Shown here piece after piece: positions 32,603-62,445 of a stretch of 64,000 nucleotides of DNA (position 1 is its first letter; each line of letters begins with the position of its first letter). The stretch is from assembly GCA_025141015.1 (NCBI GenBank), contig CP081098.1, forward strand, positions 4,222,501-4,286,500, in the 5' to 3' direction. The notes under the pieces are model-generated. The model did no database searches. It worked only from the letters and a program-made list of their open reading frames with translations, and was not told the DNA's origin. The translations under genes were made by a program, and so were the position numbers. The DNA is from Rhodobacteraceae bacterium M382. Its GTDB lineage: Bacteria > Pseudomonadota > Alphaproteobacteria > Rhodobacterales > Rhodobacteraceae.

Positions 32603-33529
32603 TCAGGCGCGTTCAGATTCATTTTGGTTTATCAAGCCACGCAACAGTTCAAATTTTACACGGTTTGCGCTGACCTGACGGTAGAATGAAATCAAGAACG
32701 CTGTTGGCCCATTCAGCCTGCTCAGCCCCATCGTTGCAGCAACAACGGTTCCAACGTCCGTACGACCCTCCAGAACAAGCACACCGCCAATCATGAATAC
32801 AGCAACCGTTCCAGCACCATTGATTGCGCTCAACAGGAACTTGGTCGACAGCTTCCATTGGAACATTGATTGCCTGACCTGATAGATGCGGTCGAATTCC
32901 TGAAAAACCGTTTGGACAATGGCGTCAAGCTCGGTGGCGGTTATCTGGTCCGTTGCGCGCCGTAAAACCCGGATACGCTCGGCCAGCAGCACGTTCACTT
33001 TGCGCTGCGTCAACAATACGATCAGCACCTGAGGGGCAATGATCGAAAGAGCTATGATCCCGAGACCGGGTTGAGTGGATGCCACAAAGCCAACCACACT
33101 GATCAATGTTCCGATTTGCATCACAGGTTCGGAAAAAGCGCTACCTGTGAACTTGCCCAGCTCTTCGGCCTCGGCCGAAATGGCCGTTGACAGCGTACCG
33201 GTCGGAATTTTTACCCGATCGCGCCCTCCGCCAGCAGAGTCTTCCAATAAACGTTTCCGGATCAACCGGATAACATCTTCACCCAGGATTTGAGAGCGAT
33301 ACCCCATCAGCCATTTGAACCCCAGACTGAGCAAGACAACCCCCATCATCCCTGCGCCAAGCGTAAAAAGCTGCGACACCCCGTAAGATCCCTTTGTCAG
33401 CAGGTTCACGATCTCTTTTTGGAAATGCAGGGGTGCTGCCGCGAGACCCGCAATGGCGAGCGATAGCAGGATAAGAATGATCTGGCGCCGTCCGCTGACC
33501 CGCCAGATCGCACGATAGAGTTGAAGCAT
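32603..33529 (-). CDS. ABC-exporter-type membrane domain without ATPase
   Basis: 308 residues. It has the exporter TMD layout with membrane segments such as IILILLSLAIAGLAAAPLHF, TLGAGMMGVVLLSLGFKWL, GLGIIALSIIAPQVLIVLL and VAVFMIGGVLVLEGRTDVG, and ends soon after the last helix. No Walker A, signature or Walker B follows, and the 139 bases to the fabA terminator code for none. The opening YRAIWRVSGRRQIILILLSL is clearly akin to FGFIWKYSKRDQLILL of the large ABC-like protein near 55 kb, so both belong to one family. Either it works with a separate ATPase or it is a decayed gene. It lies 261 bases downstream of the RTX gene on the same strand. Confidence 0.75.
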   Translation of the reverse strand: MLQLYRAIWRVSGRRQIILILLSLAIAGLAAAPLHFQKEIVNLLTKGSYGVSQLFTLGAGMMGVVLLSLGFKWLMGYRSQILGEDVIRLIRKRLLEDSAGGGRDRVKIPTGTLSTAISAEAEELGKFTGSAFSEPVMQIGTLISVVGFVASTQPGLGIIALSIIAPQVLIVLLTQRKVNVLLAERIRVLRRATDQITATELDAIVQTVFQEFDRIYQVRQSMFQWKLSTKFLLSAINGAGTVAVFMIGGVLVLEGRTDVGTVVAATMGLSRLNGPTAFLISFYRQVSANRVKFELLRGLINQNESERA

Positions 33530-33790: not shown

Positions 33791-36700
33791 TCAGACCAAC
33801 AGGTCAAAGGTTTCGCCTGCGATCCGGAGATTGATTTCGTCCTGGCCCTGACCATCAACCAGCGCCCAGATGATTTGACCGGTGGGCCTGTAGATCACAA
33901 AGGCCTCCTGTTGCAAGTCCTCGCCCGCGCGTTCACCAACACCATTGGCGGTGTGCGCAAAATTGACCTGAAAATCGCCTCGGGCCGCGGCCCCGCCACC
34001 CCAGAGCAGAATATCCCCATCATCAGATGAATAGTCCTGAATCCAGTCGGACCCATGTCCCGGAACTCCGACATGAAAGAAACGATCCGCACCGCTTCCG
34101 CCGTTGAGCCGATCATGCCCAAAGCCGCCATTCAAATAGTCATCTCCATCGCCGCCAAACACCTGATCCGAAAGCGCCCCTCCGCTGAGCGTGTCATTGC
34201 CCTGCTGACCAACCAATGTGTCCGCACCCAGACCACCCAGAATACGGTCATTGCCATCCTGGCCAAACACATGATCATTTCCTGCGCCTGCAAGCACATG
34301 ATCATCACCGTCACCCGCCAGAATCATGTCTGCCAGATCAAATTCGGCCATGTCGCTTCCGCCGATGATCAGATCATCGCCCACACCCCCATTGATCGTG
34401 TCAGAGCCCTGCCCACCATTGATCGTGTCGTTTCCTGCGCGCCCGAACAAATAGTCACTGCCCTCCTGGCCACGAACGTAATCGTCCCCGTCGCCACCAT
34501 CCGCGAAGTCATTTCCTTCGTTCCCGTCGATGGTATCGACCCCGCTTTGACCATACAAAACGTCATCCGCATTCCCACCCCACAGCCGGTCGTCACCCGC
34601 GCCGCCTTCCTGGGTGGTCGGGCCGTACCATCCGTTCAGAGAGTCGTTGCCATCCCCCCCACGCAGAACGTCTCCTTCTCCGCCTCCAGATTGCAATTCG
34701 TCGTCTCCGGGCCCACCATCCAACGTGTCGTTTCCAAAATCACCTTCCAGCGTGTCGTTGCCCCGGCCGCCTTCGATGGAATCATCGCTGAAGGACCCAT
34801 TCAGGTAGTCGTTGCCCGGGCCGCCAAAAATCAGGTCATTGCCTGCGTCTCCGTCGATCTGGTCATTCCCGATGCCACCGGTAATAGTATCAGCACCTGG
34901 TGTGCCATTCAGGTAAAGGTTGAACGTCCCCGCTTCGAGCAAGATCTGATAAGCGCTATCGCTGCGATCCGCGAAAACCAAGTCTTCTATATTATAGAGG
35001 AAATCTGTCTGATCATCACCCAGCGCATCGTCACGCGCGGTCACAACAATGGCCTGCCCCTCCCGCTCCAAAGACATTGGAATCTCGGGTATCGACGAAA
35101 ACCGCTCCGGTATTCCCGTCAACGCAAAGTCATAGTCCCGCCAGTTCCCGGAAAAGACGGCTGTATCGGTGCCTTCTCCTCCATCCAGAACATCGACCCC
35201 GTCACCGCCAACTAGCGTATCGTCGCCGGATCCGCCCTCCAGCAAATCGATATCCTCGCCCCCGACAAGAGAGTCGTCACCATCCAGGCCGCGCAGCGTG
35301 TCGTTCCCGATGCCCCCGTCAAGTGTCTCATTCTCTCCGGGTACACCCTCGATCACATCGTCAAAGGCACCTGTCTCGCGCAGAGTTTCCGTGACCAGTT
35401 CGTCAAGTGTCATCCGACGGTTATCAAAAACAAGCTCTTCGATCCCAAGGATCAAATCCTGCCCATCCCCGGTGCGGCTGTTGCGCCCCGTGATAGCATA
35501 CACTGGCCCCATATCCCGAAGGTGCTCGGGAACCTCCGTCTCCGCGACCAAAACGGCGGTATAATCCTCCCAGTTTCCAGCCCAAAAGGCGACATCCGTG
35601 CCATCGGAGCCGTGAATCGTATCGTCGCCTGCACCGGCAAGAAACAGATCATGACCCAGCCCGCCGCTCAGCATGTCGTTGCCGGTGCCACCGATCAGGC
35701 GATCATCCCCGTCACTGCCAGTCAATGTATCGTCACCGGCGGCCCCATCAACAAATCCAGGGCTGTCCAGTGTTTCCAAATCGGCATCGTCTGTCAGAAT
35801 ACGCGGCGACAGAACGTGAAATGCTGCCCCGTCAATCAATCGTCCGACATAGGGATCACCAGGTTCGCCTGCATTATCCCAAACCGCAGTAATCAAACCA
35901 TCCGCCGTGACGTTCAGTTCTCGCCAGTCGATGTTTCTTTTGTCTCCAAGGCGAATTCCCGGTCCTTCGCTTTGTCCGTCAGCGGCATAGGTTGACAGAT
36001 AAATCACGTCTTCTTGGGGCCCGCCGGTATCCGCAAGCTGCCCGCCTCTGAGCAATACGACACCACCGTCGGGGCGAATTTCCGCGATCGCGGTTCGTTC
36101 ATAAAACAGACCAGCCAGAGGATCCTCTGCCTTGTCGACCAAATTGATGCTGACAACCTCTGTCCCGTCATCCGGCACAATGTGTTTGTCGAAGCCCGAC
36201 CTAACCGAAGACGTTACCAGAACCAAAGCCCCATCCGCATTCAGCTCCACATCCAAAAGCTGGACAAAGCTGGCATAGGACGCGTCGAACCGCACCAACT
36301 CGCGTGCTTCGCCTGTCAAAGCACCGTTTGCGTCGATCCCTTGCATCATGATCGAAGCATGATAATCCAATGACCCGTCTGGGGTTTCACCAACGACAAA
36401 GCCGCGCACGCTCAGAAACGCGGACGTTCCATCCCCAAGCGTCACAATCTGCCACTGTTGGATTTCACCGTCCTGGTCCCAAACAGAAGACGGATTTGGG
36501 TCAGACAGCGGGTTATCGAACAACGTTTGACGCGCGCCCAATGTGCCGTCAGCCTGCAGAATATAGCTGTAAATGTGGGCAGGCGGTTCGAGACCGTAGG
36601 AACGGGATTCGGCACCAAACGGCTCTGCCACGATCACAAGCGCAGTGCCATCCGGGCGTTCAAAGATGCTCAAAACTTCCGACACTTCGACGCCACCACG

Positions 36701-37354
36701 GCCCAGCCCAATGTCACGATCCAGGACTGCAGCGCCCGGGTTGGTCCAAACAGATGGTGAACCAACCGGGTTGCCATCAGCGTCAAATCTTTGCAACAGA
36801 CTGTCCGGATCGGGTATGGACGCCGCAGTATACCCCCCGGGCGAGGCGGGCGCGATCCAGTCCTTTGGTTCGCCCGAATACACAAGCGCCAGACCACCAT
36901 CATTCAACGCCGTAAGGCGGAGTTCCGGAATGTACCCGGACCAGCTGGCAAGACTTTGTGTTCCATCCAAAGCACCGTCTTCGGTCAGCCTGACGTGGCG
37001 AAGTTCCGTTTCCACACGATCCCCGGCAGGCACCTTGTGAGAGTGGAAATAGGACGTGCCTGTAACCACGCTATATTGGATGGAAACGTCACCAGTAGAC
37101 CCAACAACAAAATCGCCTCTCAAATACCCACTGTCCTTTGGCACCGAGGCGAGAACAATTGGGGATCCCACGATTTCTCCCGAAGCATCGAACACAGAAT
37201 ACGTGAGAGTTCGAATTGCCTCGGTCGTGCTTTGAGTTATCACGCCAAGACCGCCATTCGGCAAAATCTGCCAGACAGATCCTGACCCGTCATTCGGTGT
37301 CAGTGTGAGGGTTTTTTCAAGATAACGGTCTTCCAAAAAAATCGACTGAGCCAT
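33791..37354 (-). CDS. Large RTX calcium-binding secreted protein
   Basis: 1187 residues, no signal peptide, as expected for type I secretion. Residues 1 to about 520 form a repetitive beta-rich region (repeating 'L-N-D-G-G-L-A-L-V-Y' and 'D-G-A-L' units), possibly a propeller. RTX nonapeptides (GGxGxDxLx) come in three blocks near 530-585, 670-738 and 815-1108, for example GDDRLIGGTGNDMLSGGLGH and NDYLNGSFSDDSIEGGRGND. The blocks are separated by similar spacers containing D-V-A-F-W-A-G-N-W-E-D-Y and D-T-A-V-F-S-G-N-W-R-D-Y. The last 80 residues are non-repetitive and would hold the secretion signal. No type I secretion genes are nearby. It interrupts the fabA-fabBI order. Adhesin, protease-like or surface protein cannot be distinguished. 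Confidence 0.92.
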   Translation of the reverse strand: MAQSIFLEDRYLEKTLTLTPNDGSGSVWQILPNGGLGVITQSTTEAIRTLTYSVFDASGEIVGSPIVLASVPKDSGYLRGDFVVGSTGDVSIQYSVVTGTSYFHSHKVPAGDRVETELRHVRLTEDGALDGTQSLASWSGYIPELRLTALNDGGLALVYSGEPKDWIAPASPGGYTAASIPDPDSLLQRFDADGNPVGSPSVWTNPGAAVLDRDIGLGRGGVEVSEVLSIFERPDGTALVIVAEPFGAESRSYGLEPPAHIYSYILQADGTLGARQTLFDNPLSDPNPSSVWDQDGEIQQWQIVTLGDGTSAFLSVRGFVVGETPDGSLDYHASIMMQGIDANGALTGEARELVRFDASYASFVQLLDVELNADGALVLVTSSVRSGFDKHIVPDDGTEVVSINLVDKAEDPLAGLFYERTAIAEIRPDGGVVLLRGGQLADTGGPQEDVIYLSTYAADGQSEGPGIRLGDKRNIDWRELNVTADGLITAVWDNAGEPGDPYVGRLIDGAAFHVLSPRILTDDADLETLDSPGFVDGAAGDDTLTGSDGDDRLIGGTGNDMLSGGLGHDLFLAGAGDDTIHGSDGTDVAFWAGNWEDYTAVLVAETEVPEHLRDMGPVYAITGRNSRTGDGQDLILGIEELVFDNRRMTLDELVTETLRETGAFDDVIEGVPGENETLDGGIGNDTLRGLDGDDSLVGGEDIDLLEGGSGDDTLVGGDGVDVLDGGEGTDTAVFSGNWRDYDFALTGIPERFSSIPEIPMSLEREGQAIVVTARDDALGDDQTDFLYNIEDLVFADRSDSAYQILLEAGTFNLYLNGTPGADTITGGIGNDQIDGDAGNDLIFGGPGNDYLNGSFSDDSIEGGRGNDTLEGDFGNDTLDGGPGDDELQSGGGEGDVLRGGDGNDSLNGWYGPTTQEGGAGDDRLWGGNADDVLYGQSGVDTIDGNEGNDFADGGDGDDYVRGQEGSDYLFGRAGNDTINGGQGSDTINGGVGDDLIIGGSDMAEFDLADMILAGDGDDHVLAGAGNDHVFGQDGNDRILGGLGADTLVGQQGNDTLSGGALSDQVFGGDGDDYLNGGFGHDRLNGGSGADRFFHVGVPGHGSDWIQDYSSDDGDILLWGGGAAARGDFQVNFAHTANGVGERAGEDLQQEAFVIYRPTGQIIWALVDGQGQDEINLRIAGETFDLLV

Positions 37355-52080: not shown

Positions 52081-55026
52081 CTAGGACACATATCCTGCGA
52101 CGACCTGCAACAATTTGAATGCGGTCTGGGCATCATTTTCAACCACCGCCAAAAACTCTTCCTCGCCGATCCGCAAACAATTCAGATCCGTGGCAGCCAC
52201 CATGCTGAGCGCGCGTGGCTCCTTGCGGATAAGGCCCAATTCACCCACAAGCCGCCCCGGGCCAACCGTGACAATCAGCTGATCCTCTGTCTCGTCCTGG
52301 GGCAAATACAAACCCGCTTCGCCATCGATCACGACATAGGCACCGTCTGTCGGCTTGTCCCCTTTGAGGAAAACGACCTGCCCCGGTTCTGCCGTGTACC
52401 AGCGTGCGCCAAAAGCCAGCAACCGCAGCTGTTTGCGGTTAAGCCCGGAGAACAGGTCAATCTGCTCCAGCGCCCGCACTTTGAGCGCCAAATCCTGACT
52501 GGCAGCCCCGTCGCCTGCGACATCCACATGGGGCTCCTCGCTGACCAACCGTCCTTGCCGCAGCTCAAAGAACGTGTCGAACACGTCAGCGCTTTCAAAG
52601 CTGTTGTTCAGATAGATCAGCGTCGTGTCCGGCAGCAGCTTGCGCAGGTTCTTGTAGACCGACACTTGGGTTTCGAAATCGTAGCTGGCCAACGCATTGT
52701 CCAGGATCAGAATGTCCGGCTTTTTGATTGTCGCCCGACAAAAGGCCAATGGTTCAGCAAACACCTGCGCCAACCCCTGGCCGCCCAGCGCAATGGGCAT
52801 ATCGTAGATCAGTGCCACCACCATGTCGCGCAGCCCGTGTTGCACCAGCAGATCCGCCACCAGATTCCGCAGCTCGTCCCCCTTGCTGCCCGCGTTCTCT
52901 GAAACTTTGCCATACATCGCGTTTTCCAGAACCGTCAGGCCCGGGGCAAAGCGGTCCCGCGCCAGCGGTTCGAACAAGTCGCCCAGCGTTTCCAAAATCT
53001 CGGCCGCATGTCCGCGGCGCAGATCCAGTATCCGCTGTTTCATTTCATCGCCAAACCCAGGCCCGATCTGTTCGGCCGAGATCCGCAGGGGCACAATCAA
53101 CAGCTCTACCAGCTCATCAGGTTCCAGCGCCTTGACGCCACCGTCCCGGGTTTTCTCCACCAGCGCCAGCGCAGCATCATAGGTGCGTGGCTCAAGCCCC
53201 AATTTGCGGAACAACGGGTGATCAGTCCCATCCAATCCAAAGATCTGGCGCAGCATGTCAATCACGTCCCGGGCCAGGGCGACCAGGTCATCATCCAGCT
53301 TGAGCTCGGCCAATTTTTCCAGGAACCCGGACTGACCCACCATCATTTCCTTGGTAATCGGCTCCCTTGGCGAGGCAAACAGCAGGTTATCGGCCACCGG
53401 CAGTGCGTGATTGTATTTTTCCGGGTCCAGAAGAAAGGCATACTGGCGCAGGCCGGCCTCGTCGATGGCTCCCTGTATCGCTGGCCGCAATTCAATCAAC
53501 CGGGCCACCAATTCAGGATGGGCGGCCGGATCAAAGTGCTGATCAATCCCGCGTCGGAACAACGCCGTTCCTGATCCCATACCTTCGACGATTTGCAACC
53601 ACCAGGCGCGCAATTCGTCATCATTGGCCAGCCCGGCGATCGACGGATCAACCCAGGGCACGTCAAAGGCATCCGGGCTGTTTCCTGCCCGTGACGCGTC
53701 GGCCTGAACCTTGGGGTCGTCAGACTCCTCTTGCGGACGCGGACGCATTGCCATCATGACATTGTCGCCAAACGTACCCTGGAACATCACTGGCCGTGAC
53801 GTCGCATGACCGATCCGCGCTGCGACAATGGATTGGTGCAGTTTCGTTGCATCCTGATCCCCAAACCGCAGCTTGCCAGCCGACGGCAGCAATTCACGGG
53901 TTAGCAATTCAGCCATCGCGCGGCGGTCTTCTTCGCTGGGGGCTGCAATCCCGATAACCTTGCCCGCCGGCAGCGTTGCGCTCAGATCCTCTAAGACCAG
54001 ATTCCCGTCACTGTCGCGCACATTTACCCCCTCCAGCACGATATCACCGGACAGATGCGACACTTGCTCGGGCTCGCCCTTCATCAGGTCGTCATCCACC
54101 ATCCCCGCCGGGGCAAAGCGTTCCAGGATCACGTCCCAGCGCAGCGCCATATCCTGTGTCTGGTTGTAATAGGCCAACAATTCCTTCCAGGGGCTCGACA
54201 GATCCTTGTAAGCGCCCAGTGCCGCCACCAGCGCCCCCAGCGACACGGTGCCCTGAAGCACCAGAAACCCGCCAACCGAATAGAAAAAGAACGGGGTCAG
54301 GTTCCCGATGAAGTTGTTGAGGAACTTCATGAAGAACTTTTTCTGGTAGATGATAAAGCGGATCTCATACAGACGACCCAGGCGCGACGTGATCATCGCC
54401 AGCCGATAGCGCCAGCCCCCGTTGATCCGCAATGTCGACGCCCCGGCTGCGCTTTCCCCAATCTCCGAAGCCAGCGCCCGCACTTCCTTGATCCGCTTCT
54501 TGTTCAGAAGGTTGATCTGTTTTTGCAGCTTGGGGATCAGCCAGGCCTGTAGCGGAATCAGCGCGACAGCGGCCAGCCCGAACCAGACACTCTGCAGAAA
54601 CAAAAAGGACAGAATGGTGATCATCTGACCGGCCTGCAGAACCGGTTGACTGATCGCATCCCCCATCAAACCGCCCATCGGTTCGCTTTCGGCGGTGACC
54701 ATCGACACCAATTCGCCCTGGCTCACCCGTTCAAAATAGGGCTGCGGGAACCGCAGAACCCGCGCGATCAGCTGGAACCGGAAACGACGCAGCATGCGTT
54801 CGGCCAACACACCCTTCATCGTGTTGATCCGCATTTTCATCAGCCCATGCGCCAGAACCGACAGCAGATAGGCGATACACAAAATCCCCAGGAACATGAT
54901 CTGTTCTACAGGAATGCCAAAGACGTCAATGACGGCGGTCTGTGATCCGATGGCATCGTTGATGATGCGTTTAGGCAGCTCAAGCGTCAGGTAAAGCAAT
55001 GGAAACAAACTGGTCGTGACAGCCAA
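52081..55026 (-). CDS. ABC-like membrane protein with dead ATPase and cyclic-nucleotide-binding domain
   Basis: 981 residues from TTG 55026, but the coding frame continues upstream to a TAG at 55171-55173. The added residues (R-T-L-F-G-F-I-W-K-Y-S-K-R-D-Q-L-I-L) belong to the family, yet no ATG/GTG/TTG exists there, so the true start may be CTG 55158, ATC/ATT near 55092 or lost. Exporter TMD: about 1-310. NBD: Walker A position reads GIAAPSEEDRRA (no GK[ST]), the signature LGGQGLAQVF, Walker B D-I-L-I-L-D-N with Asn for catalytic Glu. About 335 residues separate Q-loop and signature instead of about 60. A cNMP-binding domain (about 853-975) has G-E-L-G-L-I-R-K-E-P-R-A for the phosphate cassette. 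Confidence 0.85.
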   Translation of the reverse strand: MAVTTSLFPLLYLTLELPKRIINDAIGSQTAVIDVFGIPVEQIMFLGILCIAYLLSVLAHGLMKMRINTMKGVLAERMLRRFRFQLIARVLRFPQPYFERVSQGELVSMVTAESEPMGGLMGDAISQPVLQAGQMITILSFLFLQSVWFGLAAVALIPLQAWLIPKLQKQINLLNKKRIKEVRALASEIGESAAGASTLRINGGWRYRLAMITSRLGRLYEIRFIIYQKKFFMKFLNNFIGNLTPFFFYSVGGFLVLQGTVSLGALVAALGAYKDLSSPWKELLAYYNQTQDMALRWDVILERFAPAGMVDDDLMKGEPEQVSHLSGDIVLEGVNVRDSDGNLVLEDLSATLPAGKVIGIAAPSEEDRRAMAELLTRELLPSAGKLRFGDQDATKLHQSIVAARIGHATSRPVMFQGTFGDNVMMAMRPRPQEESDDPKVQADASRAGNSPDAFDVPWVDPSIAGLANDDELRAWWLQIVEGMGSGTALFRRGIDQHFDPAAHPELVARLIELRPAIQGAIDEAGLRQYAFLLDPEKYNHALPVADNLLFASPREPITKEMMVGQSGFLEKLAELKLDDDLVALARDVIDMLRQIFGLDGTDHPLFRKLGLEPRTYDAALALVEKTRDGGVKALEPDELVELLIVPLRISAEQIGPGFGDEMKQRILDLRRGHAAEILETLGDLFEPLARDRFAPGLTVLENAMYGKVSENAGSKGDELRNLVADLLVQHGLRDMVVALIYDMPIALGGQGLAQVFAEPLAFCRATIKKPDILILDNALASYDFETQVSVYKNLRKLLPDTTLIYLNNSFESADVFDTFFELRQGRLVSEEPHVDVAGDGAASQDLALKVRALEQIDLFSGLNRKQLRLLAFGARWYTAEPGQVVFLKGDKPTDGAYVVIDGEAGLYLPQDETEDQLIVTVGPGRLVGELGLIRKEPRALSMVAATDLNCLRIGEEEFLAVVENDAQTAFKLLQVVAGYVS

Positions 55027-55260
55027 CAGGATCAGTTGGTCACGTTTGGAGTACTTCCAGATGAATCCAAAAAGGGTACGTTCGATGTCAATATTCCAGA
55101 AAATAAAAAGCTCTGTCCGCGGGTTCAGCGCCAGATTAGCAAGTTGCAGAGCAAACAGGCAATTGGTTTCCTAAAATAACCGGTGTGAAACGGTTCATTT
55201 GCAGCCCTCCGAAAAATCCGTAAGCTGTGAGTGTAACCGCGCTCAAACCACTCGAGGATC

Positions 55261-55656
55261 GTGATTTTGTTAACGTCTGTCGGCACTGTTCTGCTGTTGC
55301 TCTGCGCCCTGCAGATTAAACATATGTTTGCCGATTATTACATGCAGACGCCCAAGATGTTGTCTGGTCGGGGCGAATACCTGCATATGGGACGTGCTCA
55401 GCATGCGGGCATTCACGCGATTGGATCGTTTCTGGTGCTGGTGCTGTTTGGGGCACCGTTTTTGTTTTCCCTTGTTTTGGCCGGTGTCGAATGGGTGGTT
55501 CATTTCAACATCGACTACTGCAAAGCCCGCTATTCGGACGCCAAACAGTATACCCCGACACAGGCAGGGTTCTGGCGTGCTGCGGGTACAGATCAGGCGG
55601 CTCATCATCTGACGTATATCGCGATGGTCTGGGCCTGGGTGGTTTTCACCGGGTAG
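55261..55656 (+). CDS. DUF3307 membrane protein
   Basis: 131 residues from GTG 55261. Hydrophobic with about four helices; TVLLLLCALQIKHMFADYYM, H-A-G-I-H-A-I-G and WVVHFNIDYCKARYSDAKQY match DUF3307, with conserved His and Asp residues (H-M-F-A-D, D-Y-C-K). Function unknown. Divergent from the ABC-like gene with about 90-230 bases between depending on the true start, and convergent with the cyclase gene. Confidence 0.85.
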   Translation: MILLTSVGTVLLLLCALQIKHMFADYYMQTPKMLSGRGEYLHMGRAQHAGIHAIGSFLVLVLFGAPFLFSLVLAGVEWVVHFNIDYCKARYSDAKQYTPTQAGFWRAAGTDQAAHHLTYIAMVWAWVVFTG

Positions 55657-55680
55657 CCCACGACAGGCGTTGGACGTTGA

Positions 55681-57477
55681 TCAGGTTGGCGCATCTGCAC
55701 CGGTTGTGGCAGATCGCAAGTCCGCCGGAGCATTTTCCGCTTGATATTGATCCCCATGAACATCCGGGCGTGGCGTTGCGGCAAAGACCGGAACCGGGTC
55801 GGCGTAGCCTTTGAGCGGAATTGCCGGAAGTTCGTCGAAATCGACACCCGTCAATCCGCGCGCTGCGTCTCGTGTGGCCCGATCTGTCAACACTTGATCA
55901 GGTGCCGCCTTGGAACACAGGCGGGCCGACAGGTTTACCGTTGATCCCAACACAGTGAAATCCATACGATCACGCGCGCCCATGGCCCCCATGACGACCA
56001 CGCCCGAGGCCACACCAATGCCAACATGCAGTTCATGTTCCGGATGCTCTTCGAGCAGGCGGGCCATGGCCCGCGTAATCCCCACTGCACACGACACGGC
56101 GCGCCGCTCCATGTCATCGCCTTCGAACACGGCGACAAGGGCATCCCCGATGAATTTGTCGACATCCCCGTGATGCTGGACGACGATATCTGTCTGCGCG
56201 TCGAAATACTGATTTAGAACCTCGATCACCCGTTCCGGCGGCACGCGCTCGGAGAATTCGGTGTAGCCACGAATATCGGTGAAAATCACTGAAACGCGCC
56301 TGCGTTCGCCGCCCCGCTCCATTCCGGTCTCTTCGGCGTTCTGAATGGCCGAGACTGTTCCGTGCGACACGAATTTCATCAATTCGACCCGCTCTCCCAG
56401 ATGCGCAATCATCTGATTGAAACGGCGCGCAAGGTCGCCGATTTCATCGCGCGACCGAACATCCTGAACCCGGGCGCCAAAATCACCGCTCCCGACCCGT
56501 TCTGCCACCTCACCGATACGGAGGATCGGCCGCGTCAGGCGACGGGCAAACAGCATTGCACCCAAGCTGGCGATCGCAAACCCAACCAACCCGACCACGA
56601 AAATCTGTCGGGTGATCGCATTGACCACCGCATAGGCATTTGCTTCGCTCAGCTCGGTGATCACAGCCCAGGGAAACCAATCGGGAAAGGCATAAGCCCC
56701 AAGCATCGCCTGGCCGTCAGGACGCACATAGGGTTCCAGCGCGTCGGCCCGCGCCCCGGCCACAATCAGCGGCAGGGCGGATTGAACGATCTGCCGCTCT
56801 GTCAGCAATTGCATATCATCGACCAGAACGGTGCGACCGGCCTGATCAATCACAGTGATTTCGCCCCGTTGCGCAAAGGGATGTCGGCGCACCATCTCTC
56901 CCAGCATGGACAGGTCGACCTTGGCCACCATGGTGACACGCCGGTTTGCGATCTTCTGGTTGAGTGGCAGAGCCAACGTCGCCATCCAACGACCTGTTCC
57001 CGGCAGTCGCGACACCAATGGGCGGCCAAACTGCCCGGTCGCGGCAATGGAGCGCAACAGATCGGGCCCGGTTGTGAGCGCTTGGACCGGGTCAATGCCG
57101 GCCTCGACCAGCTTTTGCGAAAACGCTTCGTTGGTGACCAGAATAGGCTGCGGTGCGCCCTCGACGCTAAGCTGCAGCGCCACCACATCCGACAGTTCCT
57201 GAAGCCCCAGCGTCAGCAGTGACATCTTTTGCGCAACGCCCAGATCGATGCTGTCCACCCCATTGCGGATCACCATCAGCGGGGTCAACCAGCGCCCCTG
57301 AAACGTTGCATCAAAATCTTCACGCAATTGCGCGGCGACCAGGGTCAGGCTCTCGTTGGCGGCGCTTTTCAATTCGTCCCGTGTCAACTGGGTCAGATTT
57401 TGTGCCACCATCACCAAAGGTGCAACCGCCAGGGCCGCTGCAAAGACAAAGAACTTGAGGCGCAAAGGAAACCGCAT
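55681..57477 (-). CDS. Membrane adenylate cyclase with periplasmic sensor and HAMP
   Basis: 598 residues. TM1 (LKFFVFAAALAVAPLVMVA), a periplasmic sensor domain of about 260 residues, TM2 (IFVVGLVGFAIASLGAMLFA), HAMP (about 310-365) and a class III cyclase (about 395-560). Metal Asps are in VIFTDIRGYTEFSERV and DKFIGDALVAVFEGDD; the Lys in D-K-F and D-F-T-V-L-G-S-T-V-N fit ATP rather than GTP. It should make cAMP in response to an envelope signal. Last gene of the minus-strand set with the PKD and FecR proteins. Confidence 0.92.
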   Translation of the reverse strand: MRFPLRLKFFVFAAALAVAPLVMVAQNLTQLTRDELKSAANESLTLVAAQLREDFDATFQGRWLTPLMVIRNGVDSIDLGVAQKMSLLTLGLQELSDVVALQLSVEGAPQPILVTNEAFSQKLVEAGIDPVQALTTGPDLLRSIAATGQFGRPLVSRLPGTGRWMATLALPLNQKIANRRVTMVAKVDLSMLGEMVRRHPFAQRGEITVIDQAGRTVLVDDMQLLTERQIVQSALPLIVAGARADALEPYVRPDGQAMLGAYAFPDWFPWAVITELSEANAYAVVNAITRQIFVVGLVGFAIASLGAMLFARRLTRPILRIGEVAERVGSGDFGARVQDVRSRDEIGDLARRFNQMIAHLGERVELMKFVSHGTVSAIQNAEETGMERGGERRRVSVIFTDIRGYTEFSERVPPERVIEVLNQYFDAQTDIVVQHHGDVDKFIGDALVAVFEGDDMERRAVSCAVGITRAMARLLEEHPEHELHVGIGVASGVVVMGAMGARDRMDFTVLGSTVNLSARLCSKAAPDQVLTDRATRDAARGLTGVDFDELPAIPLKGYADPVPVFAATPRPDVHGDQYQAENAPADLRSATTGADAPT

Positions 57478-57555: not shown

Positions 57556-60500
57556 TTAGTTTCGGGCAGTTGCGGTGACCTGGAGCTGATCCTGCGCGAC
57601 ACCGCAGGCCAACCCTGTGCTGTCACGTGCCGTCAAGGTCACGGTGTAGGTTCCGGCGGATTGATATCCGTGACGCGCCACGCGCCCGGTTGCCTGTGCT
57701 CCGTCGCCAAATGACCAATCCAGCATCACCCCATGCCCGTCCGGGTCTTTGACCCGAGCAGGTTCAAACCGTTCGATGTCAAAGGATCCGCCAATCGACA
57801 CAGTCCGATCCTCACCCGCATCCAGCTGCGGCGCAGCATTGACCAAAACCCGTGCAGTATCGCGTCCCGTGTCACATGCCGCGGCACCACTGTCATCGCG
57901 CACGGTCAAGGTAACCGCAATGTCGGCGGCGGACTGGAACACCCGTTCAACCCGCGGACCCGTCAGCACCTCTCCGTCCGAAAATTGCCATTCCCATTCC
58001 GTCAGTTTGCCATCCAGATCCGAGGACGCCCCCGCGTCGAATACGACGACGTCTCCGGGGCAGACAATGCGATCAGCCCCGGCCAAAGCGGTAGGCGCGG
58101 CATTGACACGTTGATAGACTTCGATCCGGCGCTGGCTACCGGGGAGGTTGGCCCCGTCGTCCAGAACCGCCGAAACGGGATACAGACCGGGTGCCGAAAA
58201 CGCGTGGCTCACGGCCGCGCCCTCGGCTTTGGTCTCCCCAAAGTTCCAGGCGACCGCAGCGCCTTCGGGCACCTGAACCGACCATGGCACATCCTGTGCA
58301 GGGCATACCTGACCCGACAGCGCCAACCCTGGATCAGGGGCCGGTTCAACAGTGATCGTATGGCGGCGTTCCACAACCGAATTACCGACACCAGCATCAT
58401 CATAGACACGCAGGATCACCGGATAAGTCCCGGCCTGCGTATAGCGGTGGCTCACATCAACCCCAACTGAACTGGCCCCATCGCCAAATTCCCATTCGAA
58501 CAGGGCAATTGCCCCGTCGGGGTCAAACGAACCCAACCCGGTAAACGTCAGCGCTTCACCGATCGACGCCCGGTCCGGTGCGGAGAGTTCGGCCACGGGT
58601 GCAGCATTCACCATGATCTTGCGCACAGCTTCGAGCTGGCCACAGATCCGGCTGCTGTCGCTTGAGCCTTCGGGCAATTGTGCAGTGGCTTTGACCAGAT
58701 ATTCGCCGGGCTCGGCGTACACATGCGATAGGGACGGCCCAGTTGCCGTCGTGCCATCTCCCAGATCCCAAGTGATTTCGACCCCATCCAACGGCAGATC
58801 TGTGCCCCCTTCGCGCAGGCTCAGCGACATCAAGTGGTCCAACCCCTGAGCGGCACGGTCGTTGGTCTCCACCTTCAATTCGGGCGCTGCGATCACTTTG
58901 TAGATCGCCGTGTCGGAATCCAACGGGCTACAACCGCCGCGCGCCTCGCCGGTAATCGTCAGCGTGACCGTATATGTGCCGGGGCGGGAAAAAATATGCA
59001 GCGGGGTTTCGCCATTCGCCGCCTTGCCGTCGCCGAAATCCCAGGCAAAGGCGTTCACTGCACCATCCGCATCGGTCGATCCCGACCCGTCCAGACGCAC
59101 CTGCTGGTTCGAACATACAGTGCGGTCCGCCCCCGCATCCGAAATTGGGCCCTCGCGCACCAATGCCGCGATGCGATCCATGGCTGTTCCCCAATCGGTG
59201 CCGGTTTCATTGCGGATTTTCAGCGTAACCGGGTAAATACCAGGTTGTTCATAGGTCTTGGTCGGGTTGATCAGATCCGAAGTATTGCCGTCCCCGAAAT
59301 CCCATTCATACAGCAACAGCCCACCGTCCGGGTCGGCGCTGGCCGACGCATCAAACAGGATCGGCTGGCCGGAACAGACATCCCGGTTGCCCCCGGCATC
59401 CGCCATCGGGCGGGCCCGCACGGACACCGTTGTGGCGTCGGTGGACAGGGCGTTGGACAATCCTGTGCCGTCGTCCACCAACAGGGTCACCGGGAACTTG
59501 CCAGCCTTGTCATAGGTATGGGATATCGTCTTGCCAAAGATCGGCCCCGACCCATCGCCCATGTCCCAACGATAGATCAGCGGATCACCGTCAGCATCGG
59601 CTGACCCAGAACCATCCAGCGTCACAATCAAACCATCTGAGATCACCGGATCACCGGCATCTGCAACGGGGGCGCTGTTGACCCGGATGGTCACGTCATC
59701 ATCAGCAACTGCATTCAACACGCCGCTGTCATCGGTAACGACCAATTGCGCGCTCCAGGTTCCCGGCGCGTCATAGGCGCGTTCAACCCGCTGTGCATCC
59801 AGCGGCACGCCCAGGTCATCAAACTCCCAACGGTAGGAAATGATCTGACCATCCGGATCAAAGCTTTGGCCCGCGTCAAACACCAGACTGTCTCCCGGCG
59901 CCACCAACCGGTCGGCCCCTGCCACGGCCACAGGTTGGGCATTGACGGTGATCAGGGTCTCCGCCTCATCCTGTGCAGGAGGGCCGGGGAAATCGTCGGT
60001 AACCGTCAATCCGATGCGATACAAACCAGGGTCAGAAATCTGATGCGCCGCCCGTTCTCCAGTGGCTTGGCCGCCGCCAGGGAAGGTCCACAGATATTCG
60101 GAAATCGCGCCATCGGGATCAATTGATCCACGCCCGGACAACAGGAACTCTTCGCCGGGTGCCACGACCTGGGGGCGGCCGGCGTCGGCAATCGGAGCGG
60201 CATTCACCGTGACCCGCATCCGGTCGCGCGCCACATTCAGCGGCGCGCCGCTGTCATCGCGCACCCGCACGGACACCTCATAAACACCCGGACGTGCATA
60301 GACATGGCGCGGATTGGGCCCCTGCCCCGTGCTGCCATCGCCAAAATCCCAGAGCCATTCGGTAATGGTGCCATCGGGATCCGCCGATCCTGCCCCATCA
60401 AATTGCACCTCGCTGGCACTGACAAATTGGTCCGCACCCGCATTCGCCACAGGGGCTGCATCCACACGAACCACACGGGTCGTGCTTTGCAACGCCGAAG

Positions 60501-62445
60501 CGGTGCCACTGTCATCTATCACCGTCAGTGTAACCGTGAATTCACCCGCTTGCGTCCAGGCATAGGTGACCAGTGGTCCCTCGCCAGATGCGCCATCGCC
60601 AAAGTCCCAGATGTAGGACAGAATCTGCCCGTCGGCGTCGCTGGAGGCCCCTGCATCCAACAACGCGGCCTCGGACACGGACACCGGACGATCCGGAATG
60701 GCGAACACTGGCACCGGCGGGGCGTTGACGCTGATCTGCAGGTGATCCACGGCCGAAGCATTGGCGACACCGCTGTTATCCGTCACGGTCAACCGAACCG
60801 TATAAACCCCGGAGTCCCGGTAGATGTGGGAAACATTGGTCCCGTTCAGAACGGTACCGTCGCCCATGTCCCATTGCCAGGCTCCAACGGCCCCATCCAC
60901 ATCATAGCTGGCCGCGCCAGACAGAAACACCGGCTGGTCGACAACCGCGCTCTGATCCGTGCCCGCTTCGGCGACGGGGGCAAAGTTCACAGCAACCAGC
61001 CGCGTTGCCACACCAAAGTTACAAGGATGCTGGCTGTCATCCTCGACCCGCAGCACCGCACGATACTGTCCCGGCTGGGCATAGACATGGGTTGCGCGCA
61101 CCGATTGGGCCAGCGCTCCATCGCCAAAACTCCAGCGATACCGGGTAATCGGGCTGTCCGACGGGTTCGACCCACCGCCTTCAAAGGCAACCGCCTGCCC
61201 GGGTGCAACCACGATGTCCGCCCCGGCGACCGCCACAGGGGCATTGCGCACATGCACTGGCACATCAATTTCGGCACCACGGCCCGGACGAATGCCCTCT
61301 TCGAGAACACGCAAACGCGCCGTATAGCGCCCTGGTTCGCTGTACCGATAGGCGATCACCGCGTCCTGAGCGCTTTGACCGTCCCCGAAACTCCATTCGA
61401 CTCCCAGCGGTGTCAGACCGCGCGACAGGTTGCCGTCAAAGGCCACCGACCGGCAATCGGCCAGAGGTCGCGCCGTACCAACCGCCGTCGGGCGCTCTGG
61501 TTCCGGTGCGCGCAACGGGGGCATCCGCAAAGGCAGCGGATTGCCGTCGCTATCATAGACTGCGAGCGTGACGTCATTTGGGGTTTCAAACCCACCCGAC
61601 AGCGACAACGACAGGTTGCTCTCATCCACCATGACCTCTGCTGAGCGCCAATGGTCCTGCCCGGAAATCGGCAAGTCGATATCCTTGTATTGGGTCAACA
61701 GCGCCAGGCGACCGTTGGCTCCATCAAAGCTTTGGACGGTCAACTTGCCCGGTTTTGGGGCGTCAAACCAAACCTGCGTCGGGGTGGCACCGGCCTCCCA
61801 TCGCACGGTGGGTTGATAGGAAAACATCTCAAGCCCGTCTGGCGCGCGATCCCGATCCCGCGACAGGCTCACCCCCACAGTAAACCCATTGCCGTCATCA
61901 CCGCCGGTGCCCTGCACGTCGATGCGGAACCAGGCCCGTTCGCCGAGGATCTCGCCCTGTCGCGTCCGCACTCCGGTCAGCGTGACCCACCGCTGGTCCG
62001 TCGCACGGTCATTCCCGTATAGTTTTTCGGTCAGCATCTTGCCCGGACCGGTCACGGGGACAGATTTTGTCAGGCGCGGTTCACGCGCGTCATCGGCGAC
62101 GGCCACGGGACGCTCGGCAGCGCTAAAGGCACCTTCGCCCCCAAACACCCGAAACGCAGTTTCCGCGTTGCCGGTCCCCCCATAGGTGAAATCATCCTGC
62201 CCCGAGGTTTCGGGGTCAAACACCCGGATATAGATCCGGTCGCGCAGCCCCTTTGGCACACTGAAGAACACCTGTTCACGCCGGTCCACATCGCCTTCGC
62301 GACTGGGCGCAAGCGCACCATAGACAACCAATTTTCCGGTATCCAGTCGCGGCCCGTCAGCGTCGGCAACTGGTGCGAGACTCAACACTGTCGCAACGGC
62401 CAGCGCCACAGCGCGGGTTGCCCTCCTTGTGAATTGTGCTGTCAT
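57556..62445 (-). CDS. Giant exported PKD-repeat protein
   Basis: 1629 residues. Signal peptide MTAQFTRRATRAVALAVATV ... ADA. Residues about 25-320 are a unique N-terminal domain, then 15 PKD repeats can be counted by their W-x-F-G-D-G core (for example WSFGDGQSAQDA, WDMGDGTVLNGT, WDFGDGASGEGP, WEFGDGASSVGV), three of them degenerate (WTFPGGGQ, WEFDDLGV, WNFGETKA). No membrane anchor or catalytic domain is visible. The start is 66 bases past the FecR stop and the end is 78 bases before the cyclase, so one operon. It probably forms a long periplasmic or outer-surface fibre. Confidence 0.92.
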   Translation of the reverse strand: MTAQFTRRATRAVALAVATVLSLAPVADADGPRLDTGKLVVYGALAPSREGDVDRREQVFFSVPKGLRDRIYIRVFDPETSGQDDFTYGGTGNAETAFRVFGGEGAFSAAERPVAVADDAREPRLTKSVPVTGPGKMLTEKLYGNDRATDQRWVTLTGVRTRQGEILGERAWFRIDVQGTGGDDGNGFTVGVSLSRDRDRAPDGLEMFSYQPTVRWEAGATPTQVWFDAPKPGKLTVQSFDGANGRLALLTQYKDIDLPISGQDHWRSAEVMVDESNLSLSLSGGFETPNDVTLAVYDSDGNPLPLRMPPLRAPEPERPTAVGTARPLADCRSVAFDGNLSRGLTPLGVEWSFGDGQSAQDAVIAYRYSEPGRYTARLRVLEEGIRPGRGAEIDVPVHVRNAPVAVAGADIVVAPGQAVAFEGGGSNPSDSPITRYRWSFGDGALAQSVRATHVYAQPGQYRAVLRVEDDSQHPCNFGVATRLVAVNFAPVAEAGTDQSAVVDQPVFLSGAASYDVDGAVGAWQWDMGDGTVLNGTNVSHIYRDSGVYTVRLTVTDNSGVANASAVDHLQISVNAPPVPVFAIPDRPVSVSEAALLDAGASSDADGQILSYIWDFGDGASGEGPLVTYAWTQAGEFTVTLTVIDDSGTASALQSTTRVVRVDAAPVANAGADQFVSASEVQFDGAGSADPDGTITEWLWDFGDGSTGQGPNPRHVYARPGVYEVSVRVRDDSGAPLNVARDRMRVTVNAAPIADAGRPQVVAPGEEFLLSGRGSIDPDGAISEYLWTFPGGGQATGERAAHQISDPGLYRIGLTVTDDFPGPPAQDEAETLITVNAQPVAVAGADRLVAPGDSLVFDAGQSFDPDGQIISYRWEFDDLGVPLDAQRVERAYDAPGTWSAQLVVTDDSGVLNAVADDDVTIRVNSAPVADAGDPVISDGLIVTLDGSGSADADGDPLIYRWDMGDGSGPIFGKTISHTYDKAGKFPVTLLVDDGTGLSNALSTDATTVSVRARPMADAGGNRDVCSGQPILFDASASADPDGGLLLYEWDFGDGNTSDLINPTKTYEQPGIYPVTLKIRNETGTDWGTAMDRIAALVREGPISDAGADRTVCSNQQVRLDGSGSTDADGAVNAFAWDFGDGKAANGETPLHIFSRPGTYTVTLTITGEARGGCSPLDSDTAIYKVIAAPELKVETNDRAAQGLDHLMSLSLREGGTDLPLDGVEITWDLGDGTTATGPSLSHVYAEPGEYLVKATAQLPEGSSDSSRICGQLEAVRKIMVNAAPVAELSAPDRASIGEALTFTGLGSFDPDGAIALFEWEFGDGASSVGVDVSHRYTQAGTYPVILRVYDDAGVGNSVVERRHTITVEPAPDPGLALSGQVCPAQDVPWSVQVPEGAAVAWNFGETKAEGAAVSHAFSAPGLYPVSAVLDDGANLPGSQRRIEVYQRVNAAPTALAGADRIVCPGDVVVFDAGASSDLDGKLTEWEWQFSDGEVLTGPRVERVFQSAADIAVTLTVRDDSGAAACDTGRDTARVLVNAAPQLDAGEDRTVSIGGSFDIERFEPARVKDPDGHGVMLDWSFGDGAQATGRVARHGYQSAGTYTVTLTARDSTGLACGVAQDQLQVTATARN

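Follow-up and report, generated by a model that had tools for sequence, protein, structure and literature searches.

The locus analysed here raises the question of what an ABC-exporter-like membrane protein does when its ATP sites have lost their motifs and its chain ends in a cyclic-nucleotide-binding domain (CNB). We examined a 64,000-nucleotide stretch of the chromosome of Rhodobacteraceae bacterium M382 (the window), in which a pseudo-ABC/CNB fusion protein of 1001 residues, counted from an ATC codon, is encoded at 52084..55086; all of its features given below lie on the minus strand. The membrane domain of the protein is that of an ABC exporter; its nucleotide-binding domain (NBD) is complete, though degenerate and split, and its CNB appears intact. 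The transmembrane domain covers approximately 54097..55086 (Pfam ABC_membrane stretch 54220-54891) and contains long runs of invariant residues across 59 orthologues. Both this domain and the NBD have the fold of type IV ABC exporters of the MsbA, HepA, TAP and PCAT type; in contrast to these exporters, the window protein lacks the canonical forms of Walker A, the signature and the Walker B pair, and its chain is lengthened by an insert of about 275 residues. The best NCBIfam match of the more distant relative L136 was HepA (heterocyst formation ABC; E 5.5e-57), with a score far below the family cut-off, and no C39 peptidase domain was present among the Pfam matches of the window protein at E up to 1.

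Three further proteins were observed in the same genome. The window encodes a 308-residue protein at 32603-33529 (minus strand) that consists of an ABC membrane domain without an NBD and is 25% identical to the pseudo-ABC/CNB protein, and, at 33791-37354 (minus strand), a 1187-residue RTX-repeat protein with 13 HemolysinCabind stretches. A second membrane-domain-only ABC protein of 457 residues (L011) was also found.

Inspection of the ATP-site positions revealed APSEEDRR in place of GxxxxGK[ST] at the Walker A position (53920..53943), LAQVF at the LSGGQ position of the signature region (52753..52788, LGGQGLAQVFAE), and DN at the Asp-Glu position of the Walker B and D-loop segment (52678..52713, ILILDNALASYD), where the catalytic Glu is Asn. 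The first-pass annotation had described the loss of Walker A and of the Walker B Glu in this one protein; we confirmed it and found that it is shared across the family. In a table of 51 non-redundant relatives, which retains fragments and includes one misaligned row (L145), Walker A was complete in two sequences, the Walker B Asp-Glu pair was present in two and LSGGQ in none, and no sequence had all three. The Walker A Lys was retained in 27/51 and the Walker B Glu in 26/51, so residual ATP use by the more distant copies may persist. At the Walker A Ser/Thr position, three sequences kept Ser or Thr and 36 had Asp or Glu. The best-kept ATP-site residue counted was the D-loop Asp (48/51). That annotation had also held that homologues with normal Walker motifs would mark the copy as simply decayed; none of the 51 has the full set, and because the same motif loss extends family-wide, the window copy does not appear to be a decayed one.

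A scan of the genome collection yielded 407 relatives, the best 80 of which (66-79% identical) were kept as close orthologues; nearly all are titled Rhodobacteraceae or belong to genera that we take to be members of that family. These close orthologues were more degenerate than the outgroup copies (those from outside the window's family), with the Walker A Lys gone as well. The frame was open over its full length in 78 of the 80, the exceptions being one broken frame (L063) and one contig end (L085). Within the class, Alphaproteobacteria, a homologue was found at E <= 1e-30 in 96 of 289 genomes. An outgroup query matched 22 of 299 phylum genomes at E <= 1e-60, 21 of them within the class, and the sole match outside it (G396) was confined to the membrane domain. 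Plasmid records include members of the family from Rhizobium, Sinorhizobium and Azospirillum, among others. The genome of the window also holds a full-length paralogue (L010, G000:C1:684529-687471) that is 49% identical, starts with ATG, overlaps a gene resembling a CAAX protease and has Asp instead of Glu in its CNB cassette. In S. meliloti, the length of a C-tract in the pseudo-ABC gene varies among deposited strains (L183, L185 and L186), and the frame is open or broken accordingly.

The insert that splits the NBD (52930..53748, limits approximate) had been read from the single sequence as two further post-Q-loop segments, and profile comparison bore this out. The [DE]N motif occurs at three places, around residues 441, 566 and 721: the first in the Q-loop region (53746..53799, SRPVMFQGTFGDNVMMAM), the second at 53371..53415 (YNHALPVADNLLFAS) and the third at 52906..52950 (FAPGLTVLENAMYGK). 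Their Asn residues were kept in 49, 50 and 50 of the 51 sequences, respectively, which is slightly stricter than the conservation of the D-loop Asp. The profiles of the corresponding segments R1, R2 and R3 matched one another, with a probability of 98.5 (E 3.7e-15) for R2-R3, 91.7 (E 7.7e-7) for R1-R2, a pair without a shuffle control, and 70 for R1-R3; in controls against R3 with shuffled columns (30 shuffles for R2 and 30 for R1), the probability never exceeded 5.2 and 1.2, respectively. The insert therefore comprises two further post-Q-loop copies, and the third copy is the NBD's own run leading into the signature. When the insert was folded alone, it gave no confident PDB match.

The C-terminal CNB (52084..52470, limits approximate; PF00027, E 3.1e-16) contains the phosphate-binding cassette GELGLIRKEPRA at 52210..52245, in which E949 and R958 were invariant in 59 aligned orthologue sequences. 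Its description as intact thus stands, with both the domain match and the cassette Glu and Arg present, and the CNB proved to be a constant partner: it was found in all 49 full-length homologues examined beyond the 80 close orthologues, as a downstream gene in 40 and fused in nine. These figures derive from an automatic tally of 50 distinct homologue loci (41 separate, eight fused, one none), from which L102 was reassigned to the fused group, because its frame of 1065 residues can be aligned with the query as far as residue 988 with no intervening stop, and L168, a membrane-domain-only paralogue, was excluded. Of the separate CNB genes, 39/40 lie within 123 bp of the pseudo-ABC gene, and the remaining one (L163) lies at 613 bp. 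Those of their products for which lengths were recorded have about 150-160 residues, which would leave no room for a DNA-binding domain. The strict cassette pattern was present in 41 of the 49 loci, and three more retain both Glu and Arg within a variant sequence; the Glu is replaced by Asp in five, including the paralogue group L101, L157 and L167. The CNB protein of L136 matched TIGR03896 (E 2.1e-14). It resembles these bacteriocin-type transport-associated proteins, whose name reflects a link to transport, in being a stand-alone CNB, but its score (53.6 bits) is below the cut-off of 161 and the partner cluster in the pseudo-ABC family is a different one.

The putative ligand of the CNB would most likely be cAMP. 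A described parallel, HetC of Nostoc, likewise fuses an ABC exporter fold to a cNMP-type domain, and this domain is reported to bind ppGpp and to give no signal with cAMP (PMC10986499); CNB folds may therefore bind ligands other than cAMP. HetC is described as having a C39 peptidase, an N-terminal cNMP-type domain and a required ATPase residue (PMC10986499), whereas the window protein lacks the ATP sites and has its CNB at the C-terminus.

The likely start codon of the gene, identified by orthologue comparison, is ATC (55084..55086). Among the window copy and its 80 close orthologues, the first codon was ATA in 60, ATC in 19 and ATG in two, and it aligned with the starts of 26 outgroup genes (L102-L128 without L105), which read ATG in 19, GTG in five and CTC in two. 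ATA accounts for 3.45% of the other Ile codons in these genes, and the binomial value for this difference ignores descent and is not usable as a probability. No ATG, GTG or TTG was present between the upstream stop and the first codon in 51/81, and the downstream ATG, GTG and TTG codons have no common position across the 81. A match to the Shine-Dalgarno sequence, 3 nt or longer, preceded the first codon in 74/81, compared with 45% at random places. Thus 79 of the 81 seem to start at ATA or ATC and not at ATG, and the NCBI annotation of the Ruegeria TM1040 copy, which begins 17 codons later, apparently starts too late by that number. A weak ATC start would be expected to result in a low protein level.

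The neighbouring gene, 0.6 kb away (55681..57477, minus strand), encodes a class III adenylate/guanylate cyclase with a HAMP domain and a dCache match below the cut-off; it is a neighbour and at most a candidate part of the system. The first-pass annotation had proposed this cyclase as the source of the signal, and the neighbourhood did not hold as a rule. The same cyclase adjoins the gene in at least 11/80 close orthologue loci, a lower bound because some loci end at contig ends, and a cyclase domain was present in at least 4/35 outgroup loci; this count, too, is a minimum, since the query used failed to detect the S. meliloti cyclase, which lies within the glycosyltransferase cluster described below. 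The genome of the window has 15 cyclase domains of this type. The link between this cyclase and the pseudo-ABC gene is weak and suggestive at most. Beyond the cyclase gene, the window encodes a 1629-residue repeat protein, PKD-like by eye (57556-62445, minus strand), which occurs in the same 11/80 loci as the cyclase.

A set of glycosyltransferase genes is a steadier partner than the cyclase. We hand-picked 40 regions from 96 genomes, mostly for long contigs, and the 35 from outside the window's family formed the outgroup set. Around many of these copies we found a cluster of two GT28-like genes (c2a and c2b), two GT4 genes (c1a and c1b), a histidine phosphatase gene (c4), a methyltransferase gene (c10), c9, deacetylase-like by eye, and c6, the last two with no Pfam match. 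The CNB was present in all 35 loci, c1a in 25, c1b in 24, c4 in 23, c2a in 22, c2b in 21, c9 in 20, c10 in 16 and c6 in 11; the cluster was not found in 10/35. Across the same 289 genomes of the class, c2a (E <= 1e-20) and the pseudo-ABC gene (E <= 1e-30) were both present in 92 and both absent from 189, with four genomes having the ABC gene only (G044, G169, G255 and G266) and four the glycosyltransferase gene only (G025, G064, G070 and G124); when four weak glycosyltransferase matches were dropped, the counts became 90 for both, 6 for the ABC gene only, 2 for the glycosyltransferase gene only and 191 for neither. The corresponding Fisher value of 6e-65 ignores descent and cannot be used as a probability.

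In the genome of the window, the cluster lies elsewhere on the chromosome (L170, G000:C1:518500-538400), unlinked from the pseudo-ABC/CNB gene, and was for this reason invisible to the first-pass annotation. It contains c10, c9, c2b, c4, c1b, c1a and c2a together with genes for a nucleotide-sugar dehydrogenase, a mechanosensitive channel and a peptide-type importer. Only one of the 80 close orthologue loci has the cluster near the gene: in L028, which is 72% identical, c2a-c1a-c1b-c4-c2b lie about 3 kb away. The peptide-type ABC importer occupies 14615-19899 of L170, beside the glycosyltransferase cluster, and relatives of its binding protein were found in 11/13 cluster regions and additionally in S. 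meliloti and Azospirillum.

The S. meliloti counterpart on pSymB would connect the cluster with a published phenotype. The gene order there is GT4, mechanosensitive channel, GT4, deacetylase, MBL, DUF3095, nucleotide-sugar dehydrogenase, cyclase, lyase, four importer genes, c2a, c1a, c2b, methyltransferase, pseudo-ABC, CNB and FkbM. This stretch is unannotated in the records of S. meliloti 1021 and 2011, so we infer the locus numbers by gene counting from the anchors SMb21247 and SMb21249 (PMC5498481) and smb21252 (PMC10128002); the gene table used for counting has no entry for two numbers that fall between SMb21249 and smb21252, and SMb21272 is named in PMC11387232. By this count, the cluster would be the phazolicin-protecting polysaccharide (PPP) locus smb21252-smb21271, with smb21265 as c2a, smb21269 as the pseudo-ABC gene, smb21270 as the CNB gene and smb21271 as FkbM. 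The genome of the window resembles this locus, by order and homology, in its GT28-like and GT4 glycosyltransferases, deacetylase, mechanosensitive channel, nucleotide-sugar dehydrogenase, peptide-type importer, a cyclase and the pseudo-ABC and CNB genes; it differs in having the CNB fused on and the pseudo-ABC gene located away from the cluster.

Travin et al. (2023) reported that nine genes between smb21252 and smb21271 are needed for an uncharacterised surface polysaccharide, PPP, and proposed it as a shield against phazolicin (PMC10128002). Mutants in smb21252 and smb21265 were about eightfold more phazolicin-sensitive (MIC from 1.47 to 0.18 ug/mL), and under attack by Myxococcus seven of the nine PPP genes rise (PMC10315480). 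In the same phazolicin screen cyaA was depleted, and a separate cyaA mutant showed a decrease from 1.47 to 0.74 ug/mL, which its authors called small; they propose cAMP regulation of genes as the link (PMC10128002). These published data make a cAMP link plausible. The sections of PMC10128002 consulted give no function for the pseudo-ABC or CNB gene and leave unstated whether they belong to the nine, and in literature searches, covering mostly titles and the openings of abstracts, we recognised no paper on the pair.

We consider it about evenly balanced that the pseudo-ABC protein is a membrane component of an alphaproteobacterial surface-glycan system, acting as a nucleotide-gated, non-hydrolysing glycan transporter or scaffold. 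Such a protein would have arisen from a type IV (MsbA/HepA-like) ABC exporter that gave up its ATP sites. A cyclic nucleotide, most likely cAMP, bound to the CNB would set the conformation of the paired pseudo-NBDs, the pseudo-NBD dimer would relay CNB occupancy to the membrane domain, and the membrane domain would let a lipid-linked glycan pass, or hold the glycosyltransferases at the membrane, without ATP hydrolysis of its own. A purely regulatory membrane scaffold, in which the pseudo-ABC dimer acts on glycosyltransferases by recruitment or inhibition, with the CNB signalling to them how much cyclic nucleotide is present, appears rather doubtful to us. It would fit the lost ATP sites, the glycosyltransferase partners and the extra repeats, which could serve as docking surfaces. 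Against it stand the invariant runs in the membrane domain across 59 orthologues and the finding of no other exporter among the ten proteins of locus L136 scanned with Pfam; the force of the latter is limited by the polysaccharide-export genes that lie close by in S. meliloti.

A working exporter whose ATP sites are non-canonical, possibly paired with a different half-transporter as a heterodimer and regulated by its CNB, would have its precedent in HetC, which carries a cNMP-type domain and depends on its ATPase for export (PMC10986499). The whole NBD fold and the Walker A Lys and Walker B Glu that about half of the relatives retain are consistent with this, but the complete absence of LSGGQ and the rarity of the Walker A Ser/Thr make it unlikely. 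The window protein has moreover lost Walker A, the signature and the Walker B Glu together, and, given how ABC dimers are built, a partner would complete neither composite site. The reading that the gene is decaying, or is a peculiarity of this locus connected with the cyclase next to it, would agree with the greater degeneracy of the window copy and the short distance to the cyclase gene; the open frames of the close orthologues, the scarcity of the cyclase beside them and above all the 51-sequence motif table, with the same loss across the class, largely refute this reading, and we regard it as highly improbable.

Returning to the nucleotide-gated glycan transporter or scaffold, we tentatively suggest a more specific form, in which a cyclic nucleotide has replaced ATP as the controlling ligand, the tripled post-Q-loop segments form a docking platform, and cAMP, acting through the constant CNB, gates either the synthesis of a protective surface glycan or its release. 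If this is true, the effect of cAMP on PPP would be partly post-translational. The apparent non-AUG start in 79/81 orthologues is a separate oddity that is directly testable. For a surface polysaccharide whose antibiotic-barrier phenotype is known, the family offers candidates both for a direct receptor of cyclic nucleotides and for a component in the membrane. It would be unusual for an ABC-exporter family to stay conserved although its ATPase residues are gone throughout a bacterial class, and a small signal molecule may control the surface coat of these bacteria by an uncommon route.
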